The notes under the pieces were generated by a model, which saw only the letters and a program-made list of their open reading frames with translations, searched no databases and was not told the origin of the DNA. This document shows, piece by piece, positions 18,190 through 29,886 of a stretch of DNA of 36,256 bases (its first letter is position 1; each line of letters begins with the position of its first letter). Source of the stretch: a virus; IMG/VR virus record IMGVR_UViG_3300032285_000181, positions 1 through 36,256 of that record, one strand, 5' to 3'. The translations under genes were made by a program, and so were the position numbers.

Positions 18190-18218
18190 AAAAACAAAAA
18201 CCCCACGAGTGTGGGGTT
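18190..18218 (-). terminator. Intrinsic terminator after the adhesin cassettes
   Basis: On the minus strand AACCCCAC-ACTC-GTGGGGTT forms an 8-bp stem with a 4-nt loop, followed by TTTTTGTTTTTG. The other strand has no T-run after the hairpin, so termination is directional. It lies 25 bp after the stop of the 173-residue gene and ends transcription of the adhesin locus. Confidence 0.9.
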
Positions 18219-18242
18219 CGAATTAAGTCTTGGTTTAGAGAC

Positions 18243-18764
18243 TTATTCCGCTGCTGGCCAAGATAAAGATTCGACAGCTGTTCTGAAAGTATCAATGGCT
18301 TCTGCTTCAGCAATCGCTTCTTCTACACGAGTTGCTTCGGCAATAACTGCTGCACGATATGTCACAGTTGCTGCTGGAATATCCACGTTTCGTTCAATTT
18401 TACGAACTAACATCCAATCTGTATGAGAAAGAAGATTGTTCGCAGTTTGTTTAATTTGTGCGATCCACTGAGATTTCAATCCCTTAGTTGCGCCATTATC
18501 TTCCAATTCTTTTGGAGTAGAAGTATAGGTAACTGTAACAACTTTTAAAGAAGAATTAAATTCTGTGATTTCTTCACTCACTTTATAAAAACGATCATCT
18601 GGACGAGGAGCAAATGCTACGTCATAGATACCCAGATCTTGTTTTTCTTGAGGAGTTAAAGTTAGGAGTTCATCTGGACCATACTCAGTCCCATTTTTAT
18701 CTTCCCAGTTTGTGTATGGAGCAAACAGTTTAATACTGTTATCATTTTTTACTAAAGCGAACAT
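18243..18764 (-). CDS. Putative tail-fibre assembly/accessory protein (173 aa), paralogue of the 178-aa gene
   Basis: The N-terminal half (MFALVKNDNSIKLFAPYTNW, then DLGIYDVAFAPRPDDRFYKV) is a small unknown domain. The C-terminal half, from KGLKSQWIAQIKQTANNLL through TDWMLVRKIERNVDIPAATV and TYRAAV to SWPAAE, resembles phage tail assembly chaperone-type domains (W..R..E...P..V..YR). It is clearly paralogous to the end of the 178-residue protein at 26024. It follows the 1731-residue adhesin by 33 nt, with its own GATAAATA core and AAAGGA ribosome-binding site, and is followed by a terminator. Fibre-tip chaperones are often encoded just after their fibre. A chaperone role is likely but not proven. 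Confidence 0.8.
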   Translation of the reverse strand: MFALVKNDNSIKLFAPYTNWEDKNGTEYGPDELLTLTPQEKQDLGIYDVAFAPRPDDRFYKVSEEITEFNSSLKVVTVTYTSTPKELEDNGATKGLKSQWIAQIKQTANNLLSHTDWMLVRKIERNVDIPAATVTYRAAVIAEATRVEEAIAEAEAIDTFRTAVESLSWPAAE

Positions 18765-18794: not shown

Positions 18795-18802
18795 TATTTA
18801 TC
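18795..18802 (-). promoter_or_regulatory. Late promoter core GATAAATA spanning the stop of the 1731-aa gene
   Basis: The coding end AGA-TAA-ATA makes GATAAATA, so the stop codon is part of the promoter. It is about 31 nt before the 173-residue gene. A second overlapping ATAAATA follows at 18791. Confidence 0.7.
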
Positions 18803-21800
18803 TTGCGTTGGCATACTTAAATGGAGTCTCTGCAAACGCAACGTAGATATATGTTTCTGCTGCATTGGCATCATAAGTGTAAGTATTTAATCTAAATCCG
18901 TTTGATAAGAAGTCGATTCTTTCGTTACCATCTTCGACCAAAGCATCATTTGGTTTTAGACGTGCAGTGGCATTATCACTGTTGTATGTTGTTCGTTTAC
19001 TATCAAACAATACCCAGTTTCTACTAGTTGAAGTGCCTTTAATTAAAACCCATGCAGGTCTAAATCCACAATTAACGAATGCTCCAGGAGAAGTTGCGTT
19101 ACCTGTATATGAACCCATTTTACTAAATCCTGGAACTTCTGCCCATAGGTATGCGATCCAACTATATGATGATGGATTATTTGCAGCAATTGTAAAGTGT
19201 GTACTAGTTGGGCTAGTATTATTAAACCAGTCTGCTCCAGTATTAAGCCCTGCATTACTGTCCAATCTTATGTTAGACAATGGTCCAACACTAGCGTGAT
19301 ATGTTTCCCATGAAGTCACACCATTAGTACCTTTAATAATAATAAACTTAGGTACTTGACCAAGATTATGCGGTACTTGCATTACAGCACCAGTACTATT
19401 AAAGTTTACAATATCAAAACCTGGAGTCTTACCTTTGTTCCAGCACCATGCAGCATATGTGTATCCATTTTCTAGACCATAAGGCGCAGCACCATTTGGA
19501 CTGTATAACTGGAATCCGTTTGGTAAGAATTGTGATAAACCAGCATTAGTTTCTGGACCAGAAGCACCAGTACTATTTGTTCCAATTGAAACACCTGGAC
19601 CACGAGTAGTATCGTAAAGTCGAGGAGACACGTTACCACCAGTTCTACACTTAGTCCAAACCAAGTCTGGAGTATTTACAGTATTACCTGTAGCATCTGG
19701 AAGATTATATCCACCAACATTCTTTAAATTCTTAGTATTAATCGCAACATGTCCAGTTGGAGGTGTATACGCAAATGGACGCTGACCAAAATTGGTATGT
19801 GTCGCTGACCAAGAATTAGTTGAAGTATTGGTATGACCAATATATGGATACAATGTAGTGTTTCTAGGAACAGATGTATCTGTATAGATTAAAGTATTAT
19901 TCCAATAATAACGAAGAGTACCCGCATCACAGTCTAATGCAAAACCCATATAGCCAGTAGATGTTACACCAGAAGCACCTAAAGTTCCATTTGATGTAAC
20001 CATATAAGGTTTATAATAAAAACCTACACTTACAGCTCCACCAACCATTGATCGCCCAGTAGTAGTGAACAAGTTTGGAGAACCATCTGGATCATTTTCA
20101 TATGGTAATGAAGTAACACCCATATAACTATGTGGGTCACCAGTACTTAAAATTTCCCAGTACCATTTACCAGTGTTAACACCAATAGTTCCACGATTTG
20201 ATTTACTATCAGTTCTTGGAAGTGTCAACAGATTATCATTTGATGACACTGATGGCACTAAAGGTACAGAAGATGATAATGGATCCCATTCACAGAAACT
20301 ACCACCAGATGCACTATCTGTTGGTCCATCGTTAATGATTGACTGATTAAGGATAGTGTTCGTTCCAATACCTGTATTGATACCATCAGAGTATGCATTA
20401 GCGTAAGATAGAATAACTACACCAGATCCACCATTACCACCAGTGTAGCCAGTAGCACCACCACCTCCGCCAGATCCTGGACGTCCAGATCCCAAACCAC
20501 CACCACTGCAGTCTGCAGACATACCAGTACCGCCACCACCAATACCACCTGCTCCAAAATATGCACTATTTGTGACATAGTAATTACCACCGCCACCGCC
20601 AGCATAGTATGTTGGAATACCAGTAATAGTATTTAATAATCCTGGACCACCACGAGAATCACTACTATTATATCCAACACCGCCAGCACCACCGCCACCA
20701 GAACCATAGTAAGTATTACCAGAGTTACCATTATTACCAGTGCCACCAGCATAACCTTGTCCTGCAGTGCCAGCACCACCACTATTACTACTTATTCCTC
20801 CGCCACCACCAGAACCACCTGCTTGTGCTGCAGCCTGTGTATAACTATAACCATTACCACCTGCAATGGCAGTTAGAGATGAGAATACTGAATTTTGTGC
20901 ATTACCTTTATTATAGGTAGATCCACCAGCACCAACTGTGACAGTATAAGACTGCCCTGGAGTTACAGCAACTGATGCATTGTAAATCATGCCACCTGCA
21001 CCACCGCCACCACCATTGGAGCCACCTGCACCACCACCAGCGATGACAAGTGCCTTAACAGATGTAACACCAGCAGGTGCAGTCCAAGTATAAGTTCCTG
21101 GAACACCATATGTCAATACTGTTGGACGTGGAAGAGACCAGTCAAATCCTACTGGTGTCCAGTTATTACCAGTACCAGAGGCATCATAACCGACTGTTCT
21201 TTGCCATGGAGATGCATCGTTAATAGTAACAGTATTATTGTTTGTTATTGCATAAGCATTAGTACTATTATCAACAATAGTTGCACTATTCAATGTTAAT
21301 AGAACCGTATTAGCATCAGAAGTAAATCCTGCAGTTGGTAGGGTTGTTTTTGTTATTGTTCTAACAATATTAGAAACTCTAAAATTAGAAATGTGACCAC
21401 CAAAATACGTGCTCGTCCAATCTAATCCAATCCAGAGTGGTGTAGTTTGTACAGCTGGTGTCAAAGTACCAGATCCAGCAAGAGCACCATCGATGTATAT
21501 ATTGCCAGAAGTTCCTGATCTTGTTAAAGCAATATGAGTCCATTTATTATTTGGAACACTTCCATTGGCAGAAAAAGTAGAAGAACCAATTTGTACTCCA
21601 ACTGTTCCATTAACTATTGTAAGTTCCATTCTGCCAGCATTACCAGTAGTTCCCTGCGAGCAAATAACATTAGATGCTGCTGTTGTATATACCCATGCTT
21701 CAACAGTAAAATCTCCAGTGGCAGGAATAACTTGAGTATTTGTAGTAGCCAAATACTGATTGGAGCCATTAAACAAACCAGCATAAGACATAGTCTCTTG

Positions 21801-23993
21801 AGTTGTAGGCTGAGCCATTGGAACATAAGAACCATTAGTTCCATATGTACCAGTGTACTTAATTGGCATCCAGTTATTATTTGCATCAAATGCACCGAAT
21901 GCAGTTGGAGGTAGTTGCTGACCATCGATCTGGTAGAACTCACTCATATATGCATCAATACCACCGCCACCACCAGCACTGTAACCAATACGAGTTTCAA
22001 CACCAGCAGTATTTACTGGTAGTGTTTGATTCAATGGCATGTAAGTTGCACTTACAGTATCGTTCTTTATTAGAACACCATCGATATAGTATTTTACTCT
22101 ATTACTTTGACTTGGTTGAGTTGAGTCAACTGCAAGCACATGGTGATGCCAGTTTTGATAATCGTTAAGTCCAGCAATTGGAGATGTTTGTAATCCAGTA
22201 ATCCAAGAACCATTATTCTGTGAAATCTCCATACCATTTTGGTAGAAATCCAACTGAAGTCTATTTGTGGAAGTTTGTCCTGCAGTCCAGATATATCCTT
22301 GACCAGAAGTTGATTCAGTTCTTGGACGTTTGACCCATACACTAACTGTGAATTTTTGTTGATTACCAGTTGCAGCTGGAGTTTGTGTTAGATACTGAGT
22401 TAAGTTCTTTACGAATCTTAAAGATTGTGTTCCAAATGCTGCAACTTGTTTTGGAGTAGTACCAACTTGCAAACTACTACCATTACCAGTGTATAGTTTA
22501 GTATCAAAGTGGTCGCTTGGACGTTTGATTACTGGGTTAGGTAGGTTAGTAGTATTTAAAGATTTAAATCCAACAGGTGGAGCATATCTGAACGGAGTCT
22601 GTCCAAAGTTAGCATCTATGGAAATATTGTAAACAGTTGCTGAAATAGAATATCCAAGAGATGGATTAATATTTGAGAATGTTGGGTTTGCTCCTGTTAC
22701 TGGATTTCCGTTTACCTGCCAAACTCCATTTTTACCAAACCACATATTTCCAGCATTTAAATCAAGAGCGATCTGGAAAATATCTCCTGATCCATAAGAT
22801 GAACCATAAGATGTTGTTGCATTATTTGAATATTTGTTCGCACTTAATAACTGATAAGCATAACCTGTCGATGTATAACCAATAGGAATCGCTGATGAAA
22901 TTGAAGAATCTATTTCTGACAGAGAAGATATACCGATATAGTTTCCAGAGTTTGGAGTACCAGTTATCGTAAACTCACAATACCACTTACCAGAAGTTAA
23001 ATTAAATGTTGAGAATGCGTTTTGATATGTTGCAGCATTGTAAGTAACAGTTAAATTACCGTTACTTATTGTTGGCTGAGAATAAGATTTATTAACAGGA
23101 TTCCAAGTAGCGTAGTTACCACGAACTACACCACCAACATCTTGTTGAACTGTTTGATTTGTGATTCCTGGAACATCAGTCATTAAGTCATGAGTAGTAC
23201 TACCGCTAGTAGTATAAGAAATAATAACAATACCACTTGCGCCACTTGCGCCAGTTTTAGTACCAGAAGAATATGCACCGCCACCGCCACCTGAACCATA
23301 AGAAGTTGAATAAGATCCTTGGCTACCAGATTGACCACCATTACCACCAGATGCATAAGATGTAGAAGTTCCACTAATAGATGACGTATAGTAACCACCA
23401 CCACTAGTACCTGAACCAGCACCTGTTACGCTACCACCACCGCCACCAACAAATGATCCAGAGTTTGCACCACCTGCAGCTCCAGCATTACCTTGTCCTG
23501 ATGGAGTAGCTGCACCACCAGCACCAGTAGTAGCTGCACCACCACCTGATCCACCAGCACGTCCATCTTCATTTGAAGAAGATCCACCGCCACCGCCACC
23601 ATATGATAATACAGATGATAATACTGAATTACCACCATTAACACCCCATACAGATTCGCTTGTAGATCCTGTTCCACCCTGACCAACAGTAACTGTATAT
23701 GCAGTTCCAGGTGTTACAGATAGTGTTCCATATAATGTGCCACCTGCACCACCACCGCCACCAGAGCGAGTGCGTCCAGAAGAAATATTACCAGAACCAC
23801 CACCACCGCCACCAGCTATAACTAGGTAGTTAACTGATGTTACACCTGCTGGTGCAGTCCATGTTGTTGTGCCAACTGTTGTGAATGCGACAACTGATGT
23901 TGTATTATTCGCTACAGTATATCCTACGTTAATGTCGTTCCAGTCGTTGCCGTTACCAGAAAGATCTTTTCCAGGATTAAATATTATTGCCAT
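18798..23993 (-). CDS. Giant modular adhesin (1731 aa): Gly-rich/SPRY/LamG
   Basis: Modules in order: D-SGNGND-W linker (10-18); glycine-rich domain 1 beginning TTTWTAPAGVTSVNYLVIAG (42-61, to about 260); SPRY-like 1 (about 300-475, WYCEFTI, FQIALDLNAGNMWFGKNGVW); LamG-like 1 (about 520-725, FTVSVWVKRP, NRVKYYIDGV); LamG-like 2 (about 736-930, FTVEAWVYT, KWTHIALTRSGTSGNIYIDG); a second linker SGTGNNW (939-945); glycine-rich domain 2 beginning TWTAPAGVTSVKALVIAGGG (969-988, to about 1197); SPRY-like 2 (about 1235-1415); and a C-terminal domain shared with the 1104-residue adhesin (about 1440-1731, IAYLWAEVPGFSKMGSY, ending YVAFAETPF). No signal peptide. These lectin-type folds suggest binding of surface glycans. 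AAGGAAG precedes ATG 23993. It lacks the N-terminal anchor of the other adhesins. Confidence 0.9.
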   Translation of the reverse strand: MAIIFNPGKDLSGNGNDWNDINVGYTVANNTTSVVAFTTVGTTTWTAPAGVTSVNYLVIAGGGGGGSGNISSGRTRSGGGGGAGGTLYGTLSVTPGTAYTVTVGQGGTGSTSESVWGVNGGNSVLSSVLSYGGGGGGSSSNEDGRAGGSGGGAATTGAGGAATPSGQGNAGAAGGANSGSFVGGGGGSVTGAGSGTSGGGYYTSSISGTSTSYASGGNGGQSGSQGSYSTSYGSGGGGGAYSSGTKTGASGASGIVIISYTTSGSTTHDLMTDVPGITNQTVQQDVGGVVRGNYATWNPVNKSYSQPTISNGNLTVTYNAATYQNAFSTFNLTSGKWYCEFTITGTPNSGNYIGISSLSEIDSSISSAIPIGYTSTGYAYQLLSANKYSNNATTSYGSSYGSGDIFQIALDLNAGNMWFGKNGVWQVNGNPVTGANPTFSNINPSLGYSISATVYNISIDANFGQTPFRYAPPVGFKSLNTTNLPNPVIKRPSDHFDTKLYTGNGSSLQVGTTPKQVAAFGTQSLRFVKNLTQYLTQTPAATGNQQKFTVSVWVKRPRTESTSGQGYIWTAGQTSTNRLQLDFYQNGMEISQNNGSWITGLQTSPIAGLNDYQNWHHHVLAVDSTQPSQSNRVKYYIDGVLIKNDTVSATYMPLNQTLPVNTAGVETRIGYSAGGGGGIDAYMSEFYQIDGQQLPPTAFGAFDANNNWMPIKYTGTYGTNGSYVPMAQPTTQETMSYAGLFNGSNQYLATTNTQVIPATGDFTVEAWVYTTAASNVICSQGTTGNAGRMELTIVNGTVGVQIGSSTFSANGSVPNNKWTHIALTRSGTSGNIYIDGALAGSGTLTPAVQTTPLWIGLDWTSTYFGGHISNFRVSNIVRTITKTTLPTAGFTSDANTVLLTLNSATIVDNSTNAYAITNNNTVTINDASPWQRTVGYDASGTGNNWTPVGFDWSLPRPTVLTYGVPGTYTWTAPAGVTSVKALVIAGGGAGGSNGGGGGAGGMIYNASVAVTPGQSYTVTVGAGGSTYNKGNAQNSVFSSLTAIAGGNGYSYTQAAAQAGGSGGGGGISSNSGGAGTAGQGYAGGTGNNGNSGNTYYGSGGGGAGGVGYNSSDSRGGPGLLNTITGIPTYYAGGGGGNYYVTNSAYFGAGGIGGGGTGMSADCSGGGLGSGRPGSGGGGGATGYTGGNGGSGVVILSYANAYSDGINTGIGTNTILNQSIINDGPTDSASGGSFCEWDPLSSSVPLVPSVSSNDNLLTLPRTDSKSNRGTIGVNTGKWYWEILSTGDPHSYMGVTSLPYENDPDGSPNLFTTTGRSMVGGAVSVGFYYKPYMVTSNGTLGASGVTSTGYMGFALDCDAGTLRYYWNNTLIYTDTSVPRNTTLYPYIGHTNTSTNSWSATHTNFGQRPFAYTPPTGHVAINTKNLKNVGGYNLPDATGNTVNTPDLVWTKCRTGGNVSPRLYDTTRGPGVSIGTNSTGASGPETNAGLSQFLPNGFQLYSPNGAAPYGLENGYTYAAWCWNKGKTPGFDIVNFNSTGAVMQVPHNLGQVPKFIIIKGTNGVTSWETYHASVGPLSNIRLDSNAGLNTGADWFNNTSPTSTHFTIAANNPSSYSWIAYLWAEVPGFSKMGSYTGNATSPGAFVNCGFRPAWVLIKGTSTSRNWVLFDSKRTTYNSDNATARLKPNDALVEDGNERIDFLSNGFRLNTYTYDANAAETYIYVAFAETPFKYANAR

Positions 23994-23994
23994 T

Positions 23995-24390
23995 TTACTT
24001 TACTTCCTTCCAAGATCCAGTAGTTTCATCCCATGTATATAACATTTCAACACCTTCATCTGGAATTGGTTTTGGAATTGGGGGATCCCATTCGCATGTA
24101 GTTTCATTTAAAGTCCAAGAAGTGTAAGGTTTTGGTGGGATGAAAGCATCTCTTTCCTCATCATATTTATACCCTGGACCAGCAAAGTTTTTACGAAATG
24201 CTTTGCTCTGATCTTCTGCCACAGTATTGTCTGAATTATAGTAAACACCACCACGAGTGTTGTAGGATGTTTGTTTGTAAACATCGCCTGTACGCTCGAA
24301 TAGTTCTAATTCTTTGCCATCGTCTTCTTGTCTACCAACAGTTACGTAGGTAACAATATTATTTTCGTCAAGTTTTGCAAAATGCGCCAT
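23995..24390 (-). CDS. Conserved small phage protein, fibre-cassette accessory (131 aa)
   Basis: The protein reads MAHFAKLDENNIVTYVTVGR, then TSYNTRGGVYY, GPGYKYDEERDAFIPPKPYT, SWTLNETTCEWDPP and a final YTWDETTGSWKEV. This composition (AHFAKLDENN, FIPPKPY-SW-LNE, repeated W-D) is a family I recall as frequent in T4-like phages of aquatic bacteria, usually next to fibre or structural genes, with no proven function. It lies between the 530- and 1731-residue adhesins, 9 nt after one and 1 nt before the other, so it is expressed with them. It takes the place that the 173/178-residue paralogues take after the other two adhesins. A structural or assembly role is inferred from position. Confidence 0.82.
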   Translation of the reverse strand: MAHFAKLDENNIVTYVTVGRQEDDGKELELFERTGDVYKQTSYNTRGGVYYNSDNTVAEDQSKAFRKNFAGPGYKYDEERDAFIPPKPYTSWTLNETTCEWDPPIPKPIPDEGVEMLYTWDETTGSWKEVK

Positions 24391-24399
24391 TGTTATCTC

Positions 24400-25992
24400 T
24401 TAGTTAAATGTAACAGTTTCTGATGTTGTAGAGGTAGCTGTAATTCTGTAAATATTATAACCAGATACAGAATTGATTGTAGTATAAGTTACACCTGCGG
24501 AAAAAGTTCCTGTGTATGTATTTGGGATTTTAATAACAGCGATGCCTGAACCACCAAGTCCACGACCGCTACCAGCTGAACCACCACCAGATCCAGTATT
24601 TGTAGCACCATTAGTAGCAGCAGTACCCACGTTATTTCCACCGTTACCACCGATACTAGATCCACCAGAGGATCCACCGTAGTATCCACCACCACCACCG
24701 CCACCTGCGTATGTTACAGATGAACCAGTTAATGACGATGCTCTACCAGAACCTCCATTACCACCAGTACTATTACCAGTAGCATTACTTCCTGCACTAC
24801 CTGCTCCGCCACCACCACCTCCGTGATATCCACCACCAGATGTAGCATTACCACCACCATATCCGTAACCAGTACCAAATTTATTGGCAGGTTGACTAGA
24901 TGATCCAGCATTACCAGTTCCGTCAGTATTTCCACCACCACCACCAGAACCACCATTATTAGTTACGCAACCGCCATACAAACCAACCAATGTTCCCCAG
25001 AATGTAGGATTACCATTAGTTGTAGATCCACTTGCAGTACCTGCTCCAACAGTAATCTTATACGGTGTTGCAACAGCAACTTGAGCAGTACCTTCTACGT
25101 ATCCACCTGCACCACCACCTCCGTGGGCATCAGCATGTCCACTACCACCACCACCAACTAAAAGAAAGTCAGCTGCAAAAGTAGAATTAAATGTAGAATT
25201 TAAAGGAAGATAAAATCCATTAGTACCATATGTACCAGTATAACGCTTTGGAACCCACGCTCCAGTCATTGCGTCAGTAAATCCAAAAGATGATGGGGTT
25301 AGTTGTTGTCCATCAACAAAATTAAGTTCAGCCATATATCCATCAAATTTACGATCTGCTGCACCAACTAAAAACATAGCACCAATAGTTTGTGTCTGAT
25401 TGGCTTGGTTAATTGCAATTGCCTGATTTTGAGTTGGGTATGTTACAGAAGGTGTAAAGGATGTTTGTTCAACACCATTAACATACATTCTAACTCTATT
25501 AGATGAAATAGCCTGTGTAGTATCAACTGCAACAATTAAATGATACCAAGCAGATGGATCACGATATTTAGCAGTGGTTCTCATAATAGTATTAGTGCCA
25601 GAAACTGGCCATTCTAAGTTACATGAGAAACAATCAGCTGATGAGTCTGCACCTGTTCTAAATAAAATTTCAAATTGCAAATCATTTTGTTGAGTTGCAT
25701 AATTAGAACCATGGAATAACCACTGATCACGATCTGTAGTAGTAATTTGTCCACGTTTAATCCAACCACTCCATGTGAATGTGGTATTACTACCAGAAGC
25801 AGTTAATGTTCTAGTTAAATATCCATTGTTTCTAAATCTTAATGAGTTTTGTGGAGTCCAACGACCACCTGGAAAGTTACCAGCTGCAGTTAATGCACCT
25901 GCTTCTTGTACTGAAAATAAACCATTGGCTGAGTTAGCATCAGTTACTTGTTCTGTTCCAGATAAAAATCCACCAGTATAGCGACGAGTCAT
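24400..25992 (-). CDS. LamG plus glycine-rich adhesin (530 aa)
   Basis: The N-terminal segment MTRRYTGGFLSGTEQV...ANGLF (1-26) is shared with the 1104-residue adhesin and is a candidate virion anchor. A LamG-like domain (about 46-264) has FTWSGWIKRG, AWYHLIVAVDTTQAISSNRV, RMYVNGVEQ, GYMAELNFVDGQQLTPSSFG and closes with TGTYGTNGFYLPL. A glycine-rich domain follows (about 275-488), beginning ADFLLVGGGGSG and running through many GGGGG stretches to GSGIAVIKIP. A 40-residue beta-like tail ends ETVTFN. It lacks the SPRY-like and C-terminal modules of its neighbours. AAGG precedes ATG 25992; an AATAAATA late core lies 29 nt upstream. Likely a receptor-binding fibre or tip. Confidence 0.9.
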   Translation of the reverse strand: MTRRYTGGFLSGTEQVTDANSANGLFSVQEAGALTAAGNFPGGRWTPQNSLRFRNNGYLTRTLTASGSNTTFTWSGWIKRGQITTTDRDQWLFHGSNYATQQNDLQFEILFRTGADSSADCFSCNLEWPVSGTNTIMRTTAKYRDPSAWYHLIVAVDTTQAISSNRVRMYVNGVEQTSFTPSVTYPTQNQAIAINQANQTQTIGAMFLVGAADRKFDGYMAELNFVDGQQLTPSSFGFTDAMTGAWVPKRYTGTYGTNGFYLPLNSTFNSTFAADFLLVGGGGSGHADAHGGGGAGGYVEGTAQVAVATPYKITVGAGTASGSTTNGNPTFWGTLVGLYGGCVTNNGGSGGGGGNTDGTGNAGSSSQPANKFGTGYGYGGGNATSGGGYHGGGGGGAGSAGSNATGNSTGGNGGSGRASSLTGSSVTYAGGGGGGGYYGGSSGGSSIGGNGGNNVGTAATNGATNTGSGGGSAGSGRGLGGSGIAVIKIPNTYTGTFSAGVTYTTINSVSGYNIYRITATSTTSETVTFN

Positions 25993-26020: not shown

Positions 26021-26028
26021 TATTTATT
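26021..26028 (-). promoter_or_regulatory. Late promoter core AATAAATA spanning the stop of the 178-aa gene
   Basis: The coding end GAA-TAA-ATA gives AATAAATA, again with the stop codon inside the motif. It is 29 nt before the 530-residue adhesin. One base from the T4 late consensus. Confidence 0.6.
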
Positions 26029-26560
26029 CGGCTTTTGGCCAAGCGATTGAAGACATAACTTCAATCAACTCTTCAATTGTGGAAACTGCTGCAATAGCAG
26101 TTACGACTCTGTTTGATTCTGCAACAACAGCTGCACGATATGTCACTACATTTTCTGGAATTTCAGTTGACTCAACTTCATTACGAATAATGAGATAGTC
26201 AGTTAGTTTTAGTAGTTTGTTTGATGTTGCTTTAATATCAGCAGTTAAACCACTCTTAAGACCTTTGTTGATAACACGAACATTGGTGTCAACCATTTCT
26301 TTTGTTTCTGCATCGTAAACTTTTACAAAAACTGGATCGCCATTTTCATCAACGGCTTCTACATCTTCCAATGCTTTTGGATTACCTGCAGACCAATAAT
26401 AGATTGGATCGAAATTAGTATCACCAGTCTTTTCAATACCCAAAGATGCACGAGTAGAAGCTGATGTTCCTTCTAACCATGCGTATGGATATGTCATTCC
26501 GTTCAGAATAAAATCTGAACCTTCAGTTATTTCTGTACCATTTAAGTAGTAAGTTGTCAT
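26024..26560 (-). CDS. Putative tail-fibre assembly/accessory protein (178 aa), paralogue of the 173-aa gene
   Basis: The C-terminal part (about residues 90-178: KGLKSGLTADIKATSNKLL, then TDYLIIRNEVESTEIPENVV, TYRAAVVAESNRV, SIAWPKAE) is plainly homologous to the end of the 173-residue protein at 18243. Both keep KGLKS, IK-T-N-LL, R--E, IP--V-TYRAAV-AE--RV--AIA and S--WP-AE. The N-terminal half (MTTYYLNGTEITEGSDFILN onward) is different. It follows the 1104-residue adhesin by 11 nt and has an ACTAAATA core inside the end of that gene. Location and family resemblance suggest a fibre-specific chaperone or connector; not proven. Confidence 0.8.
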   Translation of the reverse strand: MTTYYLNGTEITEGSDFILNGMTYPYAWLEGTSASTRASLGIEKTGDTNFDPIYYWSAGNPKALEDVEAVDENGDPVFVKVYDAETKEMVDTNVRVINKGLKSGLTADIKATSNKLLKLTDYLIIRNEVESTEIPENVVTYRAAVVAESNRVVTAIAAVSTIEELIEVMSSIAWPKAE

Positions 26561-26571
26561 TTTAATCTCTT

Positions 26572-29500
26572 TTATCTTGCTCTGTTATTTAGTGCGAATG
26601 GTGACTCTGCGAATGCAGCATAAACATACGATCCCCCAGATCCATTATAGTTTGGTGAAGCAGCATTTTTAAATTTAAATCCATTACTTACAATATCAAT
26701 TGCGTCGCTGTATCCTGGAGTACCTGTATATGGCTGAAGCGCAGCAATGGCTTGTGCACCTGATGCGAATTCAGATGTGCTATATCCATTATACGGAGTT
26801 CTTGCAGCATCCCAAATTAACCAGTCTCTTAAGTTTCCAGATGATAGAGTACCTTCACGAACTAAAATCCATTTAGGTTTAAATCCACAGTTAATAAATG
26901 GACCATCAGTTAAGCCAGATGAATAATATGATCCAAATTTACTAAATCCTGGAACTTCTGCCCATACATAGGCAATATAGTTTGCGCCACTGGCATTTAC
27001 GGTAGCGTCTGTTCCGATATAAATTGAACTTGAATCTGGTGTTTGACTATTGAAAAATGCGGTATATGCAAATGGTGCAGCATTAGAATCTAGATAAAAT
27101 GCTGCTTGTGGATTTGATAGTCCTGAATGATAAACTGCCCAAGATCTAGTAGTAACATCTCGTTGTTTAACAATCATAAATTTTGGTGCGACACCTAAAT
27201 TATGAGAAATACTTCTCGCAGCACCATTACCTGCCCATGTTACAATATTAAAACCAGAATTTGGTGATTGTTTCCACTGCCAACCCACGTTTCTGTATCC
27301 ATTTGTATTTGATACTGCATTAGTACCAACAGTAAATCCATCAGAGTTTAATTTATAAATGTTTGTTGGTTCATCTGCTTCAACTGCAGTAGTATTTGGA
27401 ATAAGTCTGCTTGGCGCACCACGTGCAGAGTCTACAATTAAGTGTGGATATGTTGTTGATAAACATTTTTCCCACACCAAGTCTGGGGCAAAACCACCAG
27501 CATTAGTGATATCCATTTGATAACCAGTACCACCCCAGACATTGACATCAAACCATTTATTTGGTTGTTGTGCTGCTTTACCAACAGAAGATGGACCAGT
27601 CGCTTGAATATTAGTAGTATTTAAAGATACAAATCCAGTTGGAGGAGTATATGCAAATGGACGCTGACCAAAGTTAGTTTGAGTCTGTAACGGATTTTGT
27701 ACTCCATTATATGCGTATGCAGACATAACTGGAACATAAGAATAAGAAGAACTAATCTGTCCACTTAGTCCAGGATTTGCACCTGTTACTGGATTACCAG
27801 AATTAAACCATGTTCCGTTTAAACCCCAATAAATTTTATTGTTGTCCATATCAACAGCAACCATAAGAATTTGTCCATTGGTTGGCACAGAACCATATGA
27901 TGTTCCAGAACCTTTGCTTTGATTGACAACTGTTTTTGGTGTGCCAGCATCAATCCACCAACTTAAATATGTAGCACCAGCACCATCGTTACCATATGTT
28001 GCAAAATTTTGTGGTGCTGTATTGGCAATGCCAAATAGGTAGTTAAATGAGTTTGTTCCAGAAATGTTAGAAACTACTTGGGAAATTGTAATTTCCCAAT
28101 AATATTTACCAGTAGGGGGAATAGTTTGCGATCCCATTACTCGTTGCCATTGTCCGACATTGGTAAAATTCATGTTTATATTACCATCAATTGGTAACGG
28201 AGTAGTACCACCAGAAGTTGTTGTGGCGAGTGGATTCCAAACGCAATAATTTCCTGAAACTACACCACCAGTATCTGTTGCTGATGTAAATACATTGACT
28301 GGAGAATCTGTTAAAATATCCCAGTTAGCCAGTGATCTATTAGTTCCAACATTCAATACATACATATTACCATTGAAACCCCAAGAGTTTCCATTGCCAG
28401 ACATATCTGTTAATGCATATGAGTAATCTACAAAAGAAGTAGTGCCATTATTAGTTAATGTTCTTGCATATTGACTATTGTCTTGAGTCGCTGATGCGCT
28501 CTGACAGCAAAGCAATTTTACGTTTGAAGAAATAGCACCCTGACTAGTTGTTGTCAGTTGTGCCTTTGGAACAGTGATAACAGTTCCACTGTATAAACAT
28601 TGTCCAATAGTAACTCGAGCATTTGAAATTGCGCCTGGCCAGTTTGCACCACCGAATGATCCATTGTTTCTATAGTTACCAATTGCTAAACCATAAGTTG
28701 TTTGATTGTATAACGATGTGGCACCAATGTTATATGTATATGTTCTTTTACCATTAATATAAACTGAAATATTACCTGCGTTACGACATACTGCAAGGTG
28801 ATTCCAAGTATAAATTTCAATCTGACCAATATCAACATAGTTGATTAAATCATTAGTGGATCCATCACTAGATGCAGCTATACGAAGCATGCGTTGTCCT
28901 GCGCCACTATTATATCCAGTAACAATTAAAGATTTGCCATTGACTGATGTTACGTTTTCACCAAAGTTAAAGATACCATGGTCGTTTTGAGTAAAGTATT
29001 CATTTGCATAGATAAACGCTTCAATCGTAAAGTCTTGATTGGTTAGTGCAAAGTCTGTGCTATATGCAGTTGTTAGATATTGTCCACTAGAACTTGCACC
29101 GAAATAGTTTGCATAGATTGTTTGATTATTGTTACCAAGAATATAATAACCATTATATCCATATCCACCAGTATATGGTTTTGGTTGCCAAATATTTGTG
29201 ATTGGATCAGCAACACCGAAATAAGATGGGTCTAACGCTAGACCATCAATAAAGTTTATTTCAGAAAGAAGACCATCAAAATAGTCAGAACCACCAGAAC
29301 GTGTACCAATAAGATGGGTCTGTGATGCTTCGTTAATTCTCATGGCATAGTTTTGAGATGGCATTGAGTTTGCAGCCAAATCTACTTCTCGTGTGCCATT
29401 AATATAAATTCTCAGTCTATCGTTAGCCACAGAGTTTGTAGTATCAGCCACTACAACAACGTGATACCATGCTGATGGATCTCTTAAAAGACGATTCGTT

Positions 29501-29886
29501 CTTAAGTAATAGTCGTATGTTACGTTATAATATTCATACTGAAGTCTGTCGCTTGTAAGATATAAACCAGCTTCGTTATTAGATCCGTTACCAACATATA
29601 ATAGTCTTTGTACTGAATTGTTAAAACTACCACGTTTCATCCAAAAACTATAAGTCCAAGTAGTTTGACTACCAGCAGTACTGCTAATAGTTCTAGCAAG
29701 ATAGTTACCATTACCAGTTCTGAATCTTAAAGATCCAGGGATCTCATAGACACCATCACCTTCTTGCCAAGTGCCATTAGTTGTGGCTTGATATTGGTCT
29801 TTTAAATCAAAAATACCACTATTTGATGATTGTGATAATGCTACTGGATTACCAGTAATAAAATTTCCTGGATATCTTTTAGACAT
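26572..29886 (-). CDS. Modular adhesin (1104 aa): two LamG, SPRY, C-terminal domain
   Basis: The candidate anchor MSKRYPGNFITGNP...NSGIF (1-26) resembles that of the 530-residue adhesin. LamG-like 1 (about 50-250: TWTYSFWMKRG, AWYHVVVVADTTNSVANDRL, RIYINGT, SEINFIDGLALDPSYFG, YGYNGYYILG). LamG-like 2 (about 258-480: FTIEAFIYA, WNHLAVCRNAGNISVYINGK). Linker DMSGNGNSW (494-502). SPRY-like domain (about 545-755: GKYYWEITI, ILMVAVDMDNNKIYWGLNGT, NFGQRPFAYTPPTGFVSLNT). C-terminal domain (about 800-1104: VWEKC, WQWKQSPNSGFNIVTW, SHNLGVAPKFMIVKQ, IAYVWAEVPGFSKFGSY, ending YAAFAESPF). All are extracellular recognition folds; glycan or surface-protein binding is likely. It has no glycine-rich domain. 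TAGGA precedes ATG 29886. Confidence 0.9.
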   Translation of the reverse strand: MSKRYPGNFITGNPVALSQSSNSGIFDLKDQYQATTNGTWQEGDGVYEIPGSLRFRTGNGNYLARTISSTAGSQTTWTYSFWMKRGSFNNSVQRLLYVGNGSNNEAGLYLTSDRLQYEYYNVTYDYYLRTNRLLRDPSAWYHVVVVADTTNSVANDRLRIYINGTREVDLAANSMPSQNYAMRINEASQTHLIGTRSGGSDYFDGLLSEINFIDGLALDPSYFGVADPITNIWQPKPYTGGYGYNGYYILGNNNQTIYANYFGASSSGQYLTTAYSTDFALTNQDFTIEAFIYANEYFTQNDHGIFNFGENVTSVNGKSLIVTGYNSGAGQRMLRIAASSDGSTNDLINYVDIGQIEIYTWNHLAVCRNAGNISVYINGKRTYTYNIGATSLYNQTTYGLAIGNYRNNGSFGGANWPGAISNARVTIGQCLYSGTVITVPKAQLTTTSQGAISSNVKLLCCQSASATQDNSQYARTLTNNGTTSFVDYSYALTDMSGNGNSWGFNGNMYVLNVGTNRSLANWDILTDSPVNVFTSATDTGGVVSGNYCVWNPLATTTSGGTTPLPIDGNINMNFTNVGQWQRVMGSQTIPPTGKYYWEITISQVVSNISGTNSFNYLFGIANTAPQNFATYGNDGAGATYLSWWIDAGTPKTVVNQSKGSGTSYGSVPTNGQILMVAVDMDNNKIYWGLNGTWFNSGNPVTGANPGLSGQISSSYSYVPVMSAYAYNGVQNPLQTQTNFGQRPFAYTPPTGFVSLNTTNIQATGPSSVGKAAQQPNKWFDVNVWGGTGYQMDITNAGGFAPDLVWEKCLSTTYPHLIVDSARGAPSRLIPNTTAVEADEPTNIYKLNSDGFTVGTNAVSNTNGYRNVGWQWKQSPNSGFNIVTWAGNGAARSISHNLGVAPKFMIVKQRDVTTRSWAVYHSGLSNPQAAFYLDSNAAPFAYTAFFNSQTPDSSSIYIGTDATVNASGANYIAYVWAEVPGFSKFGSYYSSGLTDGPFINCGFKPKWILVREGTLSSGNLRDWLIWDAARTPYNGYSTSEFASGAQAIAALQPYTGTPGYSDAIDIVSNGFKFKNAASPNYNGSGGSYVYAAFAESPFALNNRAR
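26586..26593 (-). promoter_or_regulatory. Late promoter core ACTAAATA before the 178-aa gene
   Basis: ACTAAATA, the same 8-mer found before gp18 and before the 469-residue fibre, lies inside the last codons of the 1104-residue gene and 26 nt before the 178-residue gene. Spacing to the start matches the other cores. Confidence 0.5.

Follow-up and report, generated by a model that had tools for sequence, protein, structure and literature searches.

How a large adhesin comes to begin in the middle of a module, without the anchor of its neighbours, is the question raised by a 1731-residue protein encoded in a 36.3-kb virus record (IMG/VR record IMGVR_UViG_3300032285_000181, 36,256 nucleotides; "the window" denotes this whole stretch of DNA). 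Phages are known to exchange fibre tips along with chaperones, and some have branched fibres. The window belongs to an aquatic T4-like myovirus in which portal, tail sheath, terminase and neck families were found, and its portal is nearest, at ~56% identity, to those of Methylophilales and Pelagibacter T4-like phages. In the order of minus-strand transcription, the genes encode proteins of 1532, 333, 134, 1104 (the slot-1 adhesin), 178, 530, 131, 1731, 173, 112, 84 and 1036 aa. The features that bear on the question are the following.

26572-29886, minus strand: 1104-aa slot-1 adhesin, uncut in the window
26024-26560, minus strand: 178-aa tail-fibre-assembly-like protein ahead of slot 2
24400-25992, minus strand: 530-aa protein, made up of the anchor and LamG (the front half of the split adhesin) and an inserted glycine-rich tip
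25834-25992, minus strand: anchor MTRRYTGGFLS...SLRF, residues 1-53 of the 530-aa protein, common to all slot-2 genes
25201-25227, minus strand: LamG side of the cut joint, GTNGFYLPL, residues 256-264 of the 530-aa protein
24406-25173, minus strand: inserted glycine-rich tip, residues 274-529 of the 530-aa protein, with the C-terminal end ITATSTTSETVTF
23995-24390, minus strand: 131-aa gene (phrog_7759), partner of the glycine-rich tip and probable tip chaperone
18798-23993, minus strand: 1731-aa protein, the adhesin's displaced back half, in the order linker-Gly-SPRY-LamG-LamG-linker-Gly-SPRY-DUF7483
23967-23993, minus strand: new start of the 1731-aa protein and its nine restart residues MAIIFNPGK, 1 nt past the 131-aa stop, with GGAAGGAAG upstream
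23940-23966, minus strand: first linker DLSGNGNDW, residues 10-18 of the 1731-aa protein
21159-21185, minus strand: second linker DASGTGNNW, residues 937-945 of the 1731-aa protein
18804-19688, minus strand: DUF7483 C-terminal domain of the displaced 1731-aa half
18243-18764, minus strand: 173-aa protein, weak match to the tail-fibre-assembly family phrog_4912
18198-18219, minus strand: strong terminator-like hairpin (9 pairs and a T-rich tail) directly 3' of the 173-aa gene

A longer N-terminus of the 1731-aa ORF, which starts with MAIIFNPGKDLSGNGNDW, is impossible, because the ORF scan of the window shows its frame to be open for only 2 codons above the ATG. The linker with which the protein effectively begins occurs at residues 494-502 of the 1104-aa protein as DMSGNGNSW, and a degenerate DNA pattern for it is found in the window at the two sites within the 1731-aa gene only (0 in 100 dinucleotide shuffles). 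In IMG/VR, almost all of 27 contigs have the linker behind a LamG-type segment, mostly at about residues 205-275; in other phages, D.SGNGN[ND]W is preceded by a LamG-type segment with the end YGTNGFYL.F. Domain bounds taken from Pfam and from HMMs made for this analysis place a first unit of Gly_rich_2 (residues 38-260) and SPRY (266-496), a second unit of two LamG domains (524-726 and 741-920), the linker at 937, Gly (979-1212) and SPRY (1217-1433), and a C-terminal DUF7483 (1436-1730). DUF7483 (239.9 bits), LamG_3 (92.7) and SPRY (45.7) all score above the Pfam cut-off. The polypeptide thus carries neither a leader nor a LamG at its start; the linker comes first and the front lies in the 530-aa gene. 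Both the 530-aa and the 1104-aa protein carry the anchor pattern M[TS][RK]RY.G.F, which the 1731-aa protein lacks, so that the initial annotation, which had the protein start inside a module at a linker found elsewhere behind LamG and lack the RY-G-F anchor of its neighbours, is borne out with exact residue positions. An AlphaFold2 (AF2) model of one displaced protein has low confidence at residues 1-47, and in its fold search SPRY domains headed the list, with no match of its own for DUF7483 among the matches listed.

The origin of this start is visible in syntenic relatives. A tblastn search of phage records with the N-terminal 157 residues of the 1731-aa protein, under a low-complexity filter, gave no match, and a query with its C-terminal 400 residues recovered no relative among related loci; a scan of metagenomic virus contigs with the slot-2 anchor, of a kind that favours close relatives, yielded nine syntenic loci, in which L157 is L069 again and the pairs L156/L164 and L160/L161 are duplicates, each identical over the compared genes. 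The anchor of the 530-aa protein is 69% identical over 72 columns to that of the uncut 1493-aa gene of L069/L157. In five relatives, slot 2 is one uncut gene (1493 aa in L157, 1810 in L156, 2140 in L159, 1694 in L160 and 2017 in L162) with the layout anchor-LamG-linker-...-SPRY-DUF7483, flanked as in the window by neighbours like the 178-aa and 173-aa proteins, and this one-gene place is taken in the window by the 530-, 131- and 1731-aa genes. The sequence of L158 ends within slot 2. In uncut L156, L157 and L162, the GTNGFYLPL-type motif continues for ~10-20 residues before the SGNGN linker is reached. L162 has, uncut, the order anchor-LamG-linker-Gly-SPRY-LamG-Gly-SPRY-DUF7483, the same as that of the N-terminal part of the 530-aa protein followed by the 1731-aa protein, linker and Gly module included. 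Its joint reads ...KIYSGTYGTNGFYLPFNQASSLGSDRSGNGNNLTPNNF...TTSWTAPANVTSVNYLVVAGGGG; in the window, the 530-aa protein has ...KRYTGTYGTNGFYLPLN there and the 1731-aa protein GKDLSGNGNDW...TTTWTAPAGVTSVNYLVIAGGGG. Since L162 presents the order of the window without the cut, the 530-aa front and the 1731-aa protein together match a single gene. The sequence comparison strongly supports residues 1-264 of the 530-aa protein as the missing adhesin front and the 1731-aa protein as its back, and derivation of the latter by splitting of one longer slot-2 adhesin is very likely. The earlier suggestion that the protein was cut from a longer ancestor adjoining the 131-residue gene has therefore gained strong support from the uncut syntenic genes and from the front kept in the 530-aa protein. 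As a separate observation, the uncut 2017-aa gene (L162:10001-16051) already holds a glycine-rich module within its linker-SPRY junction; glycine-rich modules therefore enter this joint in-frame too.

Elsewhere, homologues mostly begin with a leader and LamG. Many homologues with just the N-terminus of the 1731-aa protein would have told against the first interpretation, and this was half borne out: linker-first proteins occur at four other loci, each directly behind a gene of the 131-aa family, but most homologues start otherwise. An apparent class of homologues starting at the SPRY unit, seen in joined tblastn matches, was rejected, as translation shows mostly a short leader and LamG. L038 was likewise set aside as a linker-first split: at L038:7734-10467, the upstream LamG frame ends at the same motif (GLTFGSNGLLS) and a second, different frame resumes with FYLDMADGNDLGNDVSGNGNDW, likely a frameshift at the same joint, whether real or a sequencing error.

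Domain trees place the displaced parts among their uncut counterparts. The slot-2 copies of SPRY unit 1 fall in one clade (0.99), in which the displaced copies of the window and L163 lie amid uncut ones, SPRY unit 2 forms a clade of its own (0.92) and DUF7483 another (1.0), both with displaced copies amid uncut ones, and the LamG of the 530-aa protein clusters with the front LamGs of uncut slot-2 genes (0.88). The displaced slot-1 half of L156 clusters with slot 1, and its DUF7483 with that of L157 slot 1 (1.0). Because units 1 and 2 of all slot-2 genes fall in separate SPRY clades, the two-unit layout predates the cut. A duplicated unit joined to a full one, as first proposed, accordingly describes the layout, but that fusion was not made in the 1731-aa gene. 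The displaced halves do not form one group in these trees, which argues for repeated cuts (or repeated repairs).

What lies between the two halves is the glycine-rich C-terminal half of the 530-aa protein together with the 131-aa gene. The gain of the 131-residue gene, to which the cut had been tentatively attributed, is thus part of the event, as the gene sits inside the insert, but the insert is a pair of tip and gene. Like pairs split adhesins at the LamG/linker joint in slot 2 of L163 (534 / 118 / 1295 aa), in slot 1 of L156/L164 (534 / 117 / 577 aa) and in L130, another phage with an unrelated locus (518 / 118 / 581 aa), and at the second LamG/linker joint in slot 2 of L244 (1168 / 118 / 569 aa). 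With the window, this makes five split loci, all from metagenomic virus contigs. The cassette DNA of L163 and L156, although in different slots, is 78.7% identical over 1486 nt, running from the LamG end to ~150 nt inside the restarted gene. The tree of the 131-aa family has L163 and L156 as one sister pair (0.98) and L244 and L122 as another (0.97), L122 being without a split adhesin, and puts none of them near the copy of the window; these placements suggest that the cassette was acquired independently three or more times within this phage group and once outside it. Within the window, the LamG ends of the 1731-aa and 530-aa genes share a direct repeat (21820-21872 and 25205-25257; 53 nt, 77% identical), a possible recombination substrate for removal of the cassette.

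The 131-aa family (phrog_7759) is tied to glycine-rich tips in general. Most of its members were found with the 131-aa protein as query, without selection for tips, and a few from Gly-rich or LamG queries; 88 of 101 follow a gene ending in a glycine-rich tip, compared with 8 of 2215 control ORFs of 90-160 aa, and such pairs are widespread without split adhesins. In L139, L142 and L143, there are two family copies per locus, one behind a glycine-rich tip and the other behind a different protein of ~200 aa ending EEMDLTGLKLEA. Searches of the family against Pfam gave nothing but one weak chance match, those against PDB sequences no match and Foldseek against the PDB no convincing match, and no profile link was found to the local 173/178-aa Tfa-like family (hhalign probability 0.9%), which itself has chance matches only among PDB sequences. 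In its AF2 model (pLDDT 91.6), the N-terminal domain of the 131-aa protein (residues 3-60) aligns to chain 7ypx_a of the Cyanophage Pam3 fibre with Z 5.2 and an rmsd of 2.5 over 58 residues, the only chain with Z>=2 among the Foldseek candidates, at a Foldseek E of 5.3 and at a Z below 8, which may reflect a common arrangement. Chain 7ypx_a has 162 residues, as long as the chaperone gp25, whose domain 1-55 binds the glycine-rich tip (PMC9608196). In residues 75-129 of the model, strands are the sole regular elements, and a C-terminal helical trimerisation domain is missing. Adjacency to the tip and the alignment to 7ypx_a together make a chaperone of the glycine-rich tip the best guess for the 131-aa protein, a Z of 5 being weak on its own. 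A large unnamed family thereby gains a genomic context as the partner of glycine-rich tips.

Several features bear on whether the displaced half is expressed. All five restart ATGs lie at +1, 0, 0, -1 and -1 nt from the partner-gene stop (the coupled ATG of L244 being codon 6 of its longest ORF), and a GGAG/AGGA-type Shine-Dalgarno (SD)-like sequence stands just upstream of the restart in 5 of 5 split loci; within the last 20 nt, such a sequence occurs in 38 of 101 members of the 131-aa family and in 19% of ORFs overall. Despite at least three acquisitions, the restart peptides resemble one another (M[AS]...G.D.S(GN)..N.W). As the 1731-aa start is 1 nt past the 131-aa stop, translation is probably by coupling. 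No terminator-like site was found on the minus strand between the 530-aa and 1731-aa genes, and the hairpin behind the 173-aa gene is the probable end of the adhesin transcription unit. A 173-aa-like gene is conserved behind every complete slot-2 gene, and the 173-aa protein is presumed to be the chaperone of the displaced half. T4-type late promoter motifs between genes are not above chance in the window; the only TATAAATA there (24164-24171, minus strand) lies inside the 131-aa gene and is probably meaningless, because such sites are rarer than chance expects. The back-half ORFs are intact in all five split loci, and omega for the displaced DUF7483 of the window is 0.38-0.52, compared with 0.38-0.55 for uncut pairs, values in which evolution before and after the cut is not separable. 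A literature search on the proteomics of LamG-SPRY-DUF7483 adhesins found nothing useful. Taken together, these features favour translation of the back half without proving it.

The same arrangement could be read as a silent reserve, the displaced half being an orphan tip that is idle or not translated at all and is kept only because recombination between LamG joints can restore it. A new tip and partner gene with the old C-terminus downstream is indeed the layout of CDI/Rhs orphan modules, the 53-nt repeat at the LamG joints could serve such recombination, and the ungrouped displaced halves indicate that gains or reversals are frequent. However, CDI orphan toxins lack start codons (PMC9086364), which disfavours a silent orphan here, where 5 of 5 displaced halves have one together with an SD-like sequence and their ORFs of 569-1731 aa remain open and constrained; a silent reserve is unlikely. 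Less probable again is an independent virion protein, with a back half that attaches in its own way to the baseplate or to a different fibre and has no tie to the 530-aa protein. Cultured pelagiphages have SPRY and DUF7483 on separate genes, so these parts can exist apart from LamG, but no known attachment domain would fit in the 5-10 residues that the restart adds, and the back half is invariably encoded directly behind the cassette. That the split state is ancestral and the uncut genes are later fusions is very improbable: one genome pair cannot give the direction of a single change, but across phages there are 77 complete LamG-SPRY-DUF genes versus 5 SPRY-DUF-first genes, the 131-family copies in the split loci go back to different relatives, and two joints as well as two slots have been cut. 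Direction is read here from this gene count and the 131-aa family tree, with no dated event. An assembly artefact or chimera, conceivable for a metagenomic contig, has a negligible chance given the same organisation in contigs of other samples and the identical L156 and L164 loci.

The preferred reading is therefore that of an invaded adhesin whose back half stays in use. A mobile pair, the glycine-rich tip and its 131-aa partner gene, would enter exactly between LamG and linker of the slot-2 adhesin, leaving an anchored front half (530 aa) with the new tip at its end. The back half would be kept as a gene of its own, with its start codon 1 nt past the partner-gene stop and coupled translation, and would rejoin the virion non-covalently via the front half to give a two-tip (branched) adhesin, which may broaden or hedge receptor choice. 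Taken as a whole, from displaced back half and inserted pair through coupled start to a two-protein, perhaps branched, adhesin, this chain is somewhat favoured. Evenly balanced is the more general proposal of a "split-and-keep" mobile cassette that repeatedly invades LamG/linker joints and yields a two-tip adhesin with the old tip still translated, the 3' end of the partner gene being able to supply the ribosome-binding site. Uncut gene, tip-plus-partner module and cut gene are seen side by side in natural relatives, in two slots and at two joints, which suggests in concrete terms how a one-tip adhesin can become a two-tip adhesin and still keep the old specificity, and makes testable the question of whether the back half of a lectin-type adhesin can be displayed without its anchor.

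Several known systems resemble parts of this arrangement. Cultured pelagiphages encode the same LamG, SPRY and DUF7483 parts in two or three genes, but without an inserted tip or partner gene. In Pelagibacter phage HTVC202P (gp49-gp51, L168:4268-6809), the three domains are three genes, with a break at the same LamG/linker joint, and the gp49/gp50 overlap contains a repeated stretch of ~31 nt (counted by eye) spanning the linker; this break looks like the product of a short tandem duplication. In HTVC011P (L033:7989-10351) and HTVC104P (L167:4407-6826), LamG-SPRY and DUF7483 are adjacent separate genes with a 1-nt stop/start overlap, and this boundary is a second recurrent break point of the adhesin type. 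At L014:4964-9773, a 1244-aa Gly-Gly-LamG-Gly-SPRY protein, with the glycine-rich module first, is followed by a separate DUF7483 gene. Orphan modules of CDI/Rhs systems (PMC9086364) likewise combine an inserted new tip and partner gene with an old C-terminus displaced downstream; their orphan toxins are without start codons, whereas the displaced adhesin halves have coupled starts.

In Pam3, gp24/gp25 (PMC9608196) also consist of a glycine-rich receptor tip followed by a small gene, and the N-terminal domain of the 131-aa model aligns weakly to gp25; gp25, however, has a C-terminal helical domain, and the 131-aa family does not. The movement of fibre-chaperone modules between distant phages is likewise known from V22 gp26/gp27 (PMC7289586) and the A5 modules (PMC10579305). 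The papers on Pam3, V22 and A5 describe fibre and chaperone exchanged as a module, and do not report an old half that is retained as a gene of its own. The precedent for the two-protein reading is LtfA and LtfB of the T5-like phages DT57C and DT571/2, which form a branched fibre in which LtfB depends on LtfA, and whose two-gene loci fuse spontaneously to one (PMC4728585). There, too, the one fibre gene of relatives corresponds to two genes, the first retaining the anchor and a tip of its own and the second being anchorless, and a two-protein adhesin of the 530-aa and 1731-aa proteins that works like LtfA/LtfB is most likely by this analogy. LtfB has an N-terminal region of its own resembling phiEco32 gp15, whereas the 1731-aa protein resumes at the linker after about nine new residues and shows no recognisable docking domain; because only MAIIFNPGK precedes the linker, it is compared with the LtfA/LtfB type and not filed under it. 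Compared with LtfA/LtfB, the insert here is a cassette of tip and partner gene, found at several joints and in several slots.
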